Part shown: positions 18,166 through 22,824 of the stretch, piece by piece
Layout of the letters: every line of letters begins with the position of its first letter
Position numbering within the stretch: the first letter of the stretch is position 1
Assembly (NCBI GenBank): GCA_024280095.1
Contig: JAJRQU010000084.1
Location: 1 to 49,704 of the forward strand
Origin: Alphaproteobacteria bacterium
Lineage (GTDB): Bacteria; Pseudomonadota; Alphaproteobacteria; Sphingomonadales; Emcibacteraceae
Reading direction: 5' to 3'
DNA length: 49,704 nt
Program-made: the position numbers and the translations under genes
The notes under the pieces: model-generated
The model's database searches: none
Told to the model about the DNA's origin: nothing
What the model saw: the letters and a program-made list of their open reading frames with translations, nothing else

Positions 18166-19536
18166 TCAATCTAGGCTCATAACTTGATTTCGGCCATTTT
18201 CTTTTGCCTTATATAACGCGGTATCAGCAGAAACCAATAGTTTACTGCTGGATAGATTTTTATCACCCGCAAGGGCAAGGCCTATACTAACCGTTACCCT
18301 TATGGGCGTTTCAGAGCCAGAAATAACGAACGGTTCATCTGCGATAGCCCGGCAAAGCCGATCTGCGACAAAACGGGCATATTCCAAATTGGTCTCCGGC
18401 ATTACGATGACAAATTCCTCACCGCCGAAACGTGCGGCAAGGTCAATATTTCTTATATTATTCGTCACCCTATCCGCAAACTCTTTGAGGACTTCATCAC
18501 CGGATATATGGCCGTAGGTATCATTGACAACTTTAAACTTATCAAGGTCCATCATCAACAAAGATACTTTTTTACGTTTATCATTTTCTTTCGCCATAAG
18601 GTTATCCAAATGGGTTGATAGAAAATGCCGATTATACAGTCCCGTGACAGAATCAGTCATGGCCATTTGAATGCTTTTTTGGTTATTACGGCGCAAACTA
18701 TTCGCATATCTATTCTGACGAATTTGTGATTTAGCACGGGCGACCAATTCATTTTTATCAACAGGACGCGTAATATAATCTGAAACACCAAGCTCCATAG
18801 CCTTCACCATCTGATTACCCTCCCCCTCCTCAACAAGAACCAGAATCGGGATTTTTCGCGTAATTTCAGATGATCGCAGTTGCGAACATAACCGAAAACC
18901 ATCCGTTTCATTGAGGCTCAAGCTGATGATAAAAAGATCATATTGATCAAGATTTGGGGCAGTAATTTCTCCTGTTTCCACAGCATCTACATCAATTTTT
19001 GCAATATCTGCCATATAGTTGGATATTCTTTCAGCTACTCTTGAATAATCTTCAACCAAAAGAACTTTTGCATTTCGCATATTTACATTCTGATTTAAGT
19101 CCGTCCCCATGTTTATACCGAAATTCTGGCTTGTCGTTTCGCGCATACGCAGCTCATCCATCAACAGCTTTAAGCGTGCCAATGATCGAACACGCGCAAA
19201 TAATGGCAAGTCTGATACAGGTTTCGTCAGGAAATCATCCGCGCCGGCCTCAATACCCGCCACGCGGTCTTTTGCTTGATCAAGGGCTGTTACCATTATG
19301 ACAGGAATATGCGCGGTTTTAGGGTTTGACCGTATGCGCCGGCATACTTCAAACCCGTCCATACCCGGCATCATAACATCCAAAAGAATAATATCAGGAT
19401 GTTCTTCATCAATAATTTTCAGGGCTTCTTCACCGTTCATAGCTGTTAAAACATCAAAATATTCGCTGGTTAATTTTGCCTCCAGCAATTTAACATTTTG
19501 AATCACGTCATCAACAACAAGTACGCGTGCCGTCAT
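18166..19536 (-). CDS. pleD: response regulator/diguanylate cyclase PleD
   Basis: PleD makes cyclic di-GMP when phosphorylated and drives the motile-to-sessile cell-pole transition in stalked alphaproteobacteria. The 456-residue protein has a receiver domain with phospho-acceptor D53, a second degenerate receiver (about 150-270), and a GGDEF domain with active site GGEEF at 371-375. The inhibitory I-site RxxD (RNID) is intact five residues before it, so product feedback is expected. It lies 8 bp downstream of divK on the same strand, the conserved divK-pleD operon. DivK, the kinase PleC and the kinase DivJ are its known partners in Caulobacter. Confidence 0.97.
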   Translation of the reverse strand: MTARVLVVDDVIQNVKLLEAKLTSEYFDVLTAMNGEEALKIIDEEHPDIILLDVMMPGMDGFEVCRRIRSNPKTAHIPVIMVTALDQAKDRVAGIEAGADDFLTKPVSDLPLFARVRSLARLKLLMDELRMRETTSQNFGINMGTDLNQNVNMRNAKVLLVEDYSRVAERISNYMADIAKIDVDAVETGEITAPNLDQYDLFIISLSLNETDGFRLCSQLRSSEITRKIPILVLVEEGEGNQMVKAMELGVSDYITRPVDKNELVARAKSQIRQNRYANSLRRNNQKSIQMAMTDSVTGLYNRHFLSTHLDNLMAKENDKRKKVSLLMMDLDKFKVVNDTYGHISGDEVLKEFADRVTNNIRNIDLAARFGGEEFVIVMPETNLEYARFVADRLCRAIADEPFVISGSETPIRVTVSIGLALAGDKNLSSSKLLVSADTALYKAKENGRNQVMSLD

Positions 19537-19544
19537 TTAAATTC

Positions 19545-19910
19545 TCACTTCACAAATTTTTTGACAGTTTCAATAAAATTACCCACAGAAATCGGTTTTG
19601 CAATATAGGCTTCGCAGCCGCCGGCCCTGATTTTTTCTTCATCGCCTTTCATGGCGAAAGCCGTTACGGCGATAATGGGGATAGACCGTAAATCTTCGTC
19701 TTCTTTGATCCATTTGGTTACTTCCAAACCAGAAACTTCCGGAAGTTGAATATCCATCAAAATAAGATCAGGCTTTTCCTCCCGCGCAAGGGCGAGTGCC
19801 TTCATACCTTCTTGCGTTTGGATCGTATCATATCCATGCGCATGAAGAAGGTCACAAAAAAGTTTCATATTTAATTCATTGTCTTCAACAACAAGTATTT
19901 TTTTTCGCAT
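19545..19910 (-). CDS. divK: single-domain response regulator DivK
   Basis: A 121-residue stand-alone receiver domain with no output domain. The acidic pair is E9/D10, the phospho-acceptor is D53 in [10 protein letters not shown], and the switch T (VTAFAM) and K (IAKPIS) are present. In Caulobacter DivK shuttles between DivJ and PleC and, through DivL, lowers CtrA activity to control polarity and cell-cycle progress. Its pairing with pleD supports the specific name rather than a generic receiver. The upstream region (19911-20082) carries a 17-bp palindrome. Confidence 0.95.
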
Positions 19911-20398: not shown

Positions 20399-21049
20399 AT
20401 GAAATTTGCTCTAGAGCAATTAAAAACCGTTTCCTTAACGTCATCCCGGCCCCTTATTATTTCAGATGCTGATGAGGTTATTTTACATTTTTCAAATTTA
20501 CTGTCTCAATATCTGCTTACTCAAGGAATGTACGTCATATTTACCAGCTATAATCTGGAAGGAAATATCAAATATATTGATACGGATAAGCCTGTTGATA
20601 GCGGGCTGTTTAAAGAATTAATTGATGATTATTTTGAAAATAACGTTGAAAAACAAGCCGTTGTCAAGGGAGCCGTAGAGCATCTTGGTAATTTATCAGA
20701 ATATTGTGACATTATAATTCTCACCAATATTCCCCATGCTTATGCCGATCGTCGGCGCACGAAATTAGCACAATTGGGCATAAATTATCCTATGATATCA
20801 AGCAGTGGCCCAAAAGGCCCCATCATGAAAGCCATCCGAAAAAAAACAGCTGAGAAATTAATTTTCATTGATGACATCAGTCACCACCATGAATCAGTCG
20901 CACAACATGTCCCTGAGGCTCTTCGGATACAGTTTATTGCGGATAGGCAGCTTAATAAACTGGAAAAACAGGCCGCACACAGCCATCACAGATGTCATGA
21001 GTGGTCTGATATAGAGCATGTTATCAAAGGATATTTACATGACACGTGA
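20399..21049 (+). CDS. HAD-like hydrolase of unknown substrate
   Basis: A 216-residue protein with the four HAD signatures in reduced form: IISDADEVI near residue 22 (a DxDE version of motif I), IIILTNIP (motif II Thr), a Lys in SGPKGPIMKAI, and FIDDISHH (motif IV Asp pair). The second motif-I aspartate is followed by Glu rather than the usual Gly/Thr/Val. The C-terminus is rich in histidine (HHHES, HSHHRCHEW). It could be a phosphatase, but the substrate is unknown. Its stop overlaps the next gene by 11 bp, suggesting coupling with the MmcQ/YjbR protein. Confidence 0.7.
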   Translation: MKFALEQLKTVSLTSSRPLIISDADEVILHFSNLLSQYLLTQGMYVIFTSYNLEGNIKYIDTDKPVDSGLFKELIDDYFENNVEKQAVVKGAVEHLGNLSEYCDIIILTNIPHAYADRRRTKLAQLGINYPMISSSGPKGPIMKAIRKKTAEKLIFIDDISHHHESVAQHVPEALRIQFIADRQLNKLEKQAAHSHHRCHEWSDIEHVIKGYLHDT

Positions 21050-21395
21050 AGAATTTGATGTATTTTGCAGCAAACTAAAGTCTACAACAAATGTGATCCA
21101 GTGGGGCAATGCTACTGTCTGGAAAATAGGCGGAAAAATATTTGCCGTATGCTCACATTGGGGTTTGGGTGAAGAACAAAAAGTAAGTTTCAAATGCTCG
21201 GATCACAGCTATCATATCTTGTGTGAACTTCCCGGAATTATCCCTGCGCCCTATCTCGCCCGCGCCAAATGGGTGCAAATCACCAATAAAGATGCCATGG
21301 GTGACGATGATATTCGCGCATATATTGACATAGCCTATAAGATAATCTGCAAAAAACTTACCCGCGCCAAAAGAGCAGAACTCGGCATTGAGTAA
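21039..21395 (+). CDS. MmcQ/YjbR family protein
   Basis: A protein of about 118 residues from ATG 21039, with the MmcQ/YjbR fold features: MTREEFDVFCSKL, then a hydrophobic WKIGGKIFAV strand pair, SFKC, and a WVQI segment. Members are small alpha/beta proteins annotated as DNA-binding or double-wing motif proteins, but a role has not been established. A longer frame begins at 21018 within the HAD-like gene. The ATG at 21039, with AAAGGA 8 nt upstream, matches the family N-terminus and overlaps the preceding gene by 11 bp. Confidence 0.8.
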   Translation: MTREEFDVFCSKLKSTTNVIQWGNATVWKIGGKIFAVCSHWGLGEEQKVSFKCSDHSYHILCELPGIIPAPYLARAKWVQITNKDAMGDDDIRAYIDIAYKIICKKLTRAKRAELGIE

Positions 21396-21411
21396 GCCTG
21401 CGCACCATGCT

Positions 21412-21435
21412 TATGGTTAATGAATATTAACCATA
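21412..21435. repeat. 10-bp-arm inverted repeat upstream of GGDEF gene
   Basis: TATGGTTAAT-GAAT-ATTAACCATA is a perfect 10-bp inverted repeat just after the MmcQ/YjbR gene. The following bases are not T-rich, so a terminator is unlikely. It contains opposed GTTAA/TTAAC half-sites that resemble CtrA half-sites, but the spacing of six differs from the usual seven. Confidence 0.45.
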
Positions 21436-21528
21436 CACGGTGACATTTTTACCTAGTATCCGGCAGGTAAAATTTTCCTCCCATAAAGGAAACTGGAAAT
21501 TCGTCCTTTAATATCAACCTCTTATTTG

Positions 21529-21545
21529 TTGGCACAGTGCTTGCT
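21529..21545 (+). promoter_or_regulatory. sigma-54 (RpoN) -24/-12 promoter
   Basis: TTGGCAC-N5-TTGCT fits the sigma-54 consensus TGGCAC-N5-TTGCW in every defined position: the GG at -24 and GC at -12 are correctly spaced. Transcription would start near 21556, about 33 nt before the ATG of the GGDEF gene. An enhancer-binding protein site upstream was not identified. Confidence 0.8.
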
Positions 21546-21588
21546 AATATATCGCTAGGTATAATTTAATCCGTGCGAAGGGACAATC

Positions 21589-22278
21589 ATGAACCATTTT
21601 ACGCTGCCATTAAAACAACAAGCACCTGCGCCTGAAAATGAAATCAATAAACTTACCAATGAGCTGTTGATGAATTTCAAGGTATCTGGAAAAAAACTTT
21701 CCACCAAGAGCTGGGATATTCTTGCTGAGATTCTTGATTTCGTCGTCGAAGCCGAACAAACAATCGCTGAACAAAATATACATATCGAAAATCTTAAAGT
21801 TTTGACAACAACGGATACGCTCACCGGTTTGCTGAATAGACGAGGCATTCTGCAAGAACTGGAACGTGCCGTCGCGGCGGCAGAACGTCACAGTGAACCA
21901 GCCATATTGGCCTATATTGATTTAGATAACTTCAAATATGTCAATGATACATATGGTCATGCTGCGGGGGATGCCAAGTTACAATATGTCGCGCATATGC
22001 TTCTTTCTTCAATACGGCAAACCGACTGTGCGGCGCGAATGGGCGGGGATGAATTTGCCATACTTCTCAGCCATTCTGATTTAGAAGGCGGAATGCATCG
22101 TACAAAATTCATTCAGCAGCAATTAAATTTCACAAAATTTTCCTATAAAGGCCATGTCATTCCGATAAGGGCGAGTTTTGGTATCGCAGAAATATCTCCC
22201 GGAAAATCTGTAGAAGATATTATTAGCTTGGCTGACAGCCATATGTATCGCAATAAAACATGCCGTAATAAACGATAA
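21589..22278 (+). CDS. stand-alone GGDEF diguanylate cyclase
   Basis: A 229-residue soluble protein with a helical N-terminal region (about 1-75, no known sensor domain) and a GGDEF domain. The active site GGDEF is at 152-156, and the inhibitory I-site RQTD is at 143-146, five residues upstream, so a feedback-controlled cyclase is expected. No membrane segment or EAL domain is present. AAGGGA precedes the ATG. It stands alone, 75 bp before the RidA gene, with a strong sigma-54 promoter in front, which suggests it is switched on under particular conditions. Confidence 0.93.
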   Translation: MNHFTLPLKQQAPAPENEINKLTNELLMNFKVSGKKLSTKSWDILAEILDFVVEAEQTIAEQNIHIENLKVLTTTDTLTGLLNRRGILQELERAVAAAERHSEPAILAYIDLDNFKYVNDTYGHAAGDAKLQYVAHMLLSSIRQTDCAARMGGDEFAILLSHSDLEGGMHRTKFIQQQLNFTKFSYKGHVIPIRASFGIAEISPGKSVEDIISLADSHMYRNKTCRNKR

Positions 22279-22353
22279 ATGCAAACTGGCTTTTCTTATT
22301 TTGTAAGGCAGTGTAACCTGCCAAGAAAATAACATTTTACAAGAAGGAAAAGC

Positions 22354-22824
22354 ATGACGCGTACAATTGAACAAAATCTGAAAAATCTAGGCATTATATT
22401 GCCGCGCCCTGTGGCGCCGGTTGCCAATTACGTCCCCTTTGTACAAACCGGTAATTTATTATCCATTTCAGGGCAAATTCCTGTCGATTCTGAAGGCAAG
22501 TTTCCCTTTATCGGAAAGGTTGGCCAGAACGTAAGTCCGGAAGACGCCGTTAAAGCCGCCCAGCTTTGTGCTGTTAACATTATTAGCCAGATCAATGTCG
22601 CCTGCGGCGGTGATTTAAGCCGCGTTGTCCGCATCGTCAGACTTGGGGTTTTCGTCAATTGTATTGACGGGTTTCCGGGACAGCCCGCTATTGCAAACGG
22701 CGCATCCGACCTTATGGTTGCCGTCTTTGGTGATCTGGGAAAACATTCCCGGTCAGCCGTAGGCACCAATGCCCTTCCCTTAAATGTTCCTGTTGAAATA
22801 GATGCACTTATTGAAATATCTTAA
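22354..22824 (+). CDS. RidA family protein
   Basis: A 156-residue member of the RidA/YjgF/UK114 family, longer than canonical RidA by about 25 residues. RidA proteins hydrolyse reactive enamines and imines, but this subgroup has not been well characterised. Family features seen: VQTGNLLSISGQIPVDSEG, QLCAVNIISQI, RIVRLGVFVNC and the SRSAVGTNALPLNVPVEID segment with the conserved Arg. AAGGA precedes the ATG. It begins an operon with a GDPD gene 8 bp downstream. Confidence 0.92.
   Translation: MTRTIEQNLKNLGIILPRPVAPVANYVPFVQTGNLLSISGQIPVDSEGKFPFIGKVGQNVSPEDAVKAAQLCAVNIISQINVACGGDLSRVVRIVRLGVFVNCIDGFPGQPAIANGASDLMVAVFGDLGKHSRSAVGTNALPLNVPVEIDALIEIS

Follow-up and report, generated by a model that had tools for sequence, protein, structure and literature searches.

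A conserved sigma-54 promoter ahead of a stand-alone GGDEF gene, with candidate FlbD-type and CtrA-type sites

Introduction

In Caulobacter, the class III and class IV flagellar promoters combine sigma-54 with the activator FlbD, whose role at the ftr sites is described in the part of PMC3930126 drawn on here. According to excerpts of further sources, a Caulobacter strain free of c-di-GMP lacks class III flagellar protein and has a low level of class IV (PMC3764195), and in Bradyrhizobium the FlbD-FliX pair controls flagella together with exopolysaccharide (as cited in PMC8921679). For the cell-cycle regulator CtrA, the portion of PMC6180460 used here reports both TTAACCAT and a 6-nt spacing as site variants, the N6 form being known from Rhodobacter and Magnetospirillum. 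The subject at stake is the coupling of flagellum building to the rise in c-di-GMP that ends swimming. If a diguanylate cyclase belonged to the FlbD/CtrA regulon, there would be a direct transcriptional link from flagellum building to c-di-GMP.

The present analysis concerns such a candidate in an alphaproteobacterium of the family Emcibacteraceae. The window is the whole stretch of DNA that was analysed, 49,704 nucleotides (49.7 kb) of a draft genome of 2.63 Mb and 85% completeness. The features discussed below are as follows.

18166-19910, - strand: pleD (18166-19536), with PleD domains, and divK (19545-19910), divergent conserved neighbours
21413-21434, unstranded: inverted pair of CtrA-type half-sites, ATGGTTAA-N6-TTAACCAT (TTAA-N6-TTAA), candidate from conservation
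21441-21453, unstranded: upstream dyad A (TGACATTTTTACC), candidate half of an enhancer pair, from column conservation
21466-21478, unstranded: downstream dyad B (GGTAAAATTTTCC), candidate FlbD-type enhancer, from a flagellin-trained matrix
21512-21524, + strand: IHF-like site TATCAACCTCTTA, past the dyads and ahead of the promoter, matching WATCAANNNNTTR
21529-21545, + strand: sigma-54 promoter, -24/-12 elements, from sequence and orthologue conservation
21556, + strand: predicted transcription start, about 12 nt past the -12 GC
21578-21583, + strand: ribosome-binding site AAGGGA, from sequence, in a conserved block before the ATG
21589-22278, + strand: GGDEF protein of 229 amino acids, putative diguanylate cyclase (PF00990, E 2.5e-42)
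22354-22824, + strand: RidA/YjgF-type gene (PF14588/PF01042), possibly cotranscribed with the cyclase gene; 21390-22400 holds no + strand terminator-like site, the sole hit there lying on the minus strand

The sigma-54 site and the cyclase gene

An earlier note on this DNA had claimed a consensus sigma-54 motif ahead of a stand-alone cyclase gene, and its letters and positions proved accurate. The motif TTGGCAC-N5-TTGCT (TTGGCAC 21529-21535, AGTGC 21536-21540, TTGCT 21541-21545) lies on the + strand, 43 nt 5' of the ATG of the GGDEF gene at 21589, and the gap of 10 nt between the GG of the -24 element and the GC of the -12 element agrees with sigma-54 spacing. From sigma-54 promoters, transcription usually begins some 12 nt beyond the GC of the -12 element, and the predicted start follows this geometry. 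The exact form TGGCACN5TTGC occurs once on the two strands of the window, where simple arithmetic gives a chance expectation of about 0.1, so that the site by itself is just mildly unlikely. Genome-wide, TGGCAYN5TTGCW was found 14 times as against none for a reversed-pattern control, and RpoN is encoded in the same genome (PF04552, E 1.4e-67).

The encoded protein carries the GGDEF catalytic signature, and the Pfam search of its 229 residues found no domain besides GGDEF. An RxxD motif, the inhibitory site of diguanylate cyclases, stands five residues before GGDEF; its R143 and D146 are invariant in 28 aligned orthologues, whereas the leading G of GGDEF is variable in a single genus. These features point to a cytoplasmic diguanylate cyclase that is probably open to feedback inhibition.

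The earlier note had also placed the cyclase gene next to divK-pleD, which it called a second, separately controlled source of c-di-GMP. The neighbourhood is indeed shared and old, but divK-pleD are encoded on the other strand at a distance of about 1.7 kb, and the ORFs 20399-21049 and 21018-21395 separate them from the cyclase gene. In all eight fetched regions, from genomes of five families, divK-pleD were found near the cyclase gene and divergently oriented; ridA follows the cyclase gene in seven of them and is not shown in the eighth (G037), and clpA/clpS are found further on in the two longest. The order divK-pleD, cyclase, ridA thus recurs across samples from the whole order, and the proximity to pleD is therefore considered an old neighbourhood. 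It is plausible that the cyclase is controlled separately from PleD.

Conservation of the sigma-54 site

Some match to the cyclase protein was obtained in 57 of the 60 genomes searched (the window's own included); the best 30 loci of these 57 were taken, and omission of L016, whose sequence ends at the gene, left a set of 29. With a site defined as keeping the GG/GC and deviating at no more than one position, within 250 nt upstream, a coding-strand sigma-54 site was found in 29/29 orthologue loci with upstream sequence, compared with 5 of 1160 dinucleotide shuffles and 0/29 for the opposite strand of the same regions, many of the loci being related and the 29 thus not being independent events. 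All four later loci, from two further families outside the footprint set, likewise have a site 50-80 nt before the likely start, exact in G049, with one mismatch in G037 and G039 and with two in G054. The GG/GC pair, whose loss in close relatives the earlier note had named as grounds for giving up its claim, is therefore retained. In a 14-sequence alignment the sigma-54 block shows a mean column identity of 0.88 versus 0.48 in the leader just downstream. Among 80 named loci a sigma-54-like site was identified upstream in four, of which just two look like relatives in the right geometry, both with comparable sites: L056 of Azospirillum brasilense, with its site below two GGCA/TGCC dyads, and L065 of a Rhodospirillaceae genome.

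Mildly unlikely when taken alone, the site is considered real because it is conserved in the orthologues; there is very little doubt that the sigma-54 promoter upstream of the cyclase gene is genuine, and it is taken to be old. The idea of a chance match to a loose consensus can be regarded as refuted and deserves almost no credence: arithmetic gives odds of roughly 1 in 10 for finding one exact match by itself in a window of this length, but the site recurs in every one of the 29 loci and the four later ones. A further explanation accepts the conserved match but denies that it is the main promoter, transcription depending instead on a CtrA-dependent sigma-70 promoter past 21434 or on some other start. 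The conserved CtrA-type boxes described below would fit such a promoter, and a TATAAT is present at 21560-21565; however, no two-hexamer sigma-70-type promoter was scored in 21390-22400, the TATAAT is kept no further than the closest relative (L003), and the sigma-54 elements rank among the best-kept columns, all of which makes this explanation quite unlikely.

CtrA-type boxes, dyads and the IHF-like site

As judged from its letters, the cyclase promoter holds more than a sigma-54 site, namely a CtrA-type pair, two dyads placed as enhancers and an IHF-like site, each of them a candidate. The inverted pair at 21413-21434 reads in full ATGGTTAATGAATATTAACCAT, and the only two copies of TTAACCAT in the whole window are those of this pair. 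The mean column identity of the region 21412-21435 is 0.82 across 14 orthologues. On either strand, TTAACCAT was found in 24 of the 29 cyclase promoters, compared with 0/20 flagellin promoters and 2/31 other sigma-54 promoters; one of the five loci without it, L017, has little upstream sequence. TTAA-N6/7-TTAA boxes are present in 18/29 cyclase promoters, and relatives of another genus have direct TTAACC repeats instead, often with a spacing of 7 nt. Two orphan genes of the genus, encoding proteins of about 158 and about 47 amino acids, likewise pair sigma-54 sites with CtrA-type boxes, TTAACCAT being found in seven of nine of their promoters (L048, L160, L165, L203, L208, L224; L042, L211, L221). 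The 158-residue protein gave no family above cut-off in a Pfam search.

The flagellin genes of these genomes also have sigma-54 promoters with two dyads in similar placement. Dyad matrices were trained on 20 flagellin promoters alone, L247 and L252 having been dropped as near duplicates, and were applied to the cyclase promoters and to 43 control sigma-54 promoters, consisting of 39 hand-picked from 106 hits and four psp loci. The matrix for dyad B scored above the 95th percentile of shuffles in 26/29 cyclase promoters versus 3/43 controls (Mann-Whitney p 2e-11, a value overstated by the relatedness of the loci). The result for dyad A is weak, at 11/29 versus 3/43 (p 3e-6, relatedness ignored). 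Together with this weakness of dyad A, the spacing of the dyads, 25 bp in the window where the flagellin promoters show about 21 bp when judged by eye, counts against control by FlbD. In the same genomes the promoters of P-II genes carry a dyad of another type (TGCCTA..TAGGCA), and the cyclase-type dyad is absent from them by inspection.

Between the dyads and the promoter, TATCAACCTCTTA at 21512-21524 matches WATCAANNNNTTR, which is taken here to be the IHF consensus. The region 21512-21526 has a mean column identity of 0.75 in the 14-sequence alignment, and the stretch separating it from the dyads 0.56. The IHF-like site is not specific to the cyclase promoter, since flagellin and psp promoters have similar elements.

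FlbD as the putative activator

FlbD is encoded in the window's genome (NCBIfam NF050807, 754.6 bits, just over the cut-off of 750), where its gene adjoins fliN-like, motA-like and flhA-like ORFs. In total, nine regulators of the enhancer-binding type are encoded there, eight with GAFTGA or GAYTGA, the exception being NtrX. Across the 60 genomes, a close cyclase and FlbD were found together in 39, the cyclase only in six, FlbD only in five and neither in 10 (Fisher p 2e-4, for a threshold chosen afterwards and genomes that are related); the five genomes with FlbD and without a close cyclase speak against the link. The earlier note had suggested that the cyclase answers to nitrogen, flagellar or other enhancer-dependent signals. 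Of these, a flagellar signal is favoured by the flagellin-like dyad B and the co-occurrence with FlbD, and a nitrogen signal is disfavoured by the differing P-II dyad. In the flagellate from which the window derives, FlbD is the likeliest activator because dyad B is flagellin-like and unlike the dyads of P-II promoters, and its action at the cyclase promoter is proposed here with moderate confidence.

In the mechanism envisaged, FlbD would bind at both dyads, which lie some 50-90 bp ahead of the -24 element, with an IHF-like site between dyads and promoter and with CtrA-type boxes further upstream. Sigma-54 and FlbD would together have the cyclase made as a late flagellar gene, timed by CtrA, and the outcome would be a c-di-GMP source apart from the phosphorylation-controlled PleD encoded nearby. 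This overall model, of a diguanylate cyclase under an old sigma-54 promoter, driven by FlbD and timed by CtrA, is considered reasonably probable.

The genomes without flagella are serious evidence to the contrary. Searches for flagellin, FlbD and FlhA gave no match in four genomes (G021, G023, G026 and G030), all of which retain the cyclase, the sigma-54 site and dyad B; loss of the promoter along with FlbD had been expected, and the promoter was found to be kept. Their dyad B scores (14.5, 10.7, 7.8 and 11.0, respectively) show no clear loss against the 8.5-12.0 of six flagellated congeners. FlbD is consequently not the whole story, and its standing as sole activator is weakened. In the cyclase tree, the support of which is modest with several weak forks, the four do not form one clade. 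Either flagella were lost several times and recently, or another activator acts in the flagellum-less genomes. Another genome, G019, was considered as a flagellate free of FlbD and was rejected. In this single-contig genome there is no flbD. Its flhA (L341, G019:C1, around 348082) is without profile positions 1-75 and comes after a flgE-like ORF, at the spot where flbD stands in G020; the case is therefore read as a recent deletion and was given no weight.

Alternative activators

Another activator at a real sigma-54 promoter would account for its retention in the flagellum-less genomes. One candidate is L036 beside GapR, presumably a TacA-like regulator in view of this GapR-type neighbour, which would answer to late-stage or surface signals and not to flagellar assembly, with c-di-GMP possibly feeding back. 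Relatives of L036 (54-65% identity) are present in G021, G023 and G026, but none was found in G030 or in the single-contig G019, both of which keep the promoter; in addition, the cyclase dyads look like flagellin ones, and the TacA label derives from the GapR-type neighbour. For Caulobacter, the passages used of two sources report that c-di-GMP stimulates the kinase ShkA (PMC7010744) and that ShkA starts the phosphotransfer activating TacA (PMC7885107). Activation by L036 or the like is on balance unlikely, and since G030 and G019 lack the TacA-like regulator, no single alternative activator fits all genomes. Control by NtrC, which would tie c-di-GMP to nitrogen status, could draw on the presence of NtrC with GAFTGA in the window's genome and of NtrC in G019, G021, G023 and G030, all with the promoter kept. 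It is nevertheless highly unlikely, because the P-II promoters of the same genomes carry, by inspection, the TGCCTA..TAGGCA type of dyad and not the cyclase type; in addition, no NtrC turned up in G026, another genome that retains the promoter, and G025 has NtrC and no cyclase.

Three further regulators were rejected as candidates. For PspF, no conserved cyclase-type dyad is found in psp promoters, with modest matches in L302 and L307 out of the four psp sequences. For the LuxO-like L037, a search at E 1e-95 gave nothing in most of the second-genus genomes where the promoter is retained. As for the regulator of that genus with a GSFTDA motif, none of the nine encoded in the window's genome is orthologous to it.

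Some observations on the regulators themselves may be recorded. The response-regulator AAA protein in which GSFTDA replaces GAFTGA is encoded by five second-genus genomes (L295, L296, L299, L300, L304). The flagellum-less genomes encode TacA-like regulators (L291, L293, L298) with GAFTGA altered in all (GAFTDA, GSFTGA), and the complete ones, L293 and L298, are without a receiver domain. Directly upstream of the LuxO-like enhancer-binding protein lies a receiver protein, L037:591-953, presumably CpdR-like. In the genus, many of the sigma-54 sites lie ahead of secreted proteins whose ends are PEP-CTERM-like (L049, L054, L137, L142, L167, L212 and others), and a PEP-CTERM-matching regulator is encoded in the window's genome (TIGR02915, 685 bits).

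Comparison with known systems

With FlbD as the preferred activator, the arrangement suggests that some bacteria may make the c-di-GMP 'settle down' signal within the flagellum-building programme itself. It can be put forward only tentatively that, in several families of the order, the cyclase was built into the flagellar programme through a CtrA/FlbD-dyad/sigma-54 promoter near divK-pleD, so that completion of the flagellum would switch on a second c-di-GMP source, and that flagellum-less lineages gave this promoter to another activator. No description of an FlbD-controlled cyclase was found in the open-access literature searched. Where a sigma-54 promoter precedes a GGDEF gene, known parts come together in a new case; the apparent union of CtrA boxes with flagellin-type dyads, retained even in genomes without flagella, is the variant worth a direct test.

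PleD resembles the protein studied here as a GGDEF protein and as a neighbour of the cyclase, and differs in having two receiver domains and control by phosphorylation, the 229-residue cyclase consisting of GGDEF alone. DgcB of Caulobacter is likewise a diguanylate cyclase tied to the flagellum, in the part of PMC7885107 drawn on; DgcB is linked via a stator protein, whereas the link proposed here would lie at transcription. CtrA-regulated promoters (TTAA-N7-TTAA, TTAACCAT) share the TTAACCAT boxes, with N6 here and N7 in several relatives, but here the boxes lie about 95-115 nt before the sigma-54 element and not at the -35 region. There is also a likeness to the class III/IV flagellar promoters of Caulobacter, in the -24/-12 elements, the upstream dyads, the IHF-like element between them and the encoded FlbD; the cyclase promoter differs in preceding a GGDEF enzyme and not a structural gene, in having CtrA-type boxes alongside these elements, and in being kept in genomes without flagella.
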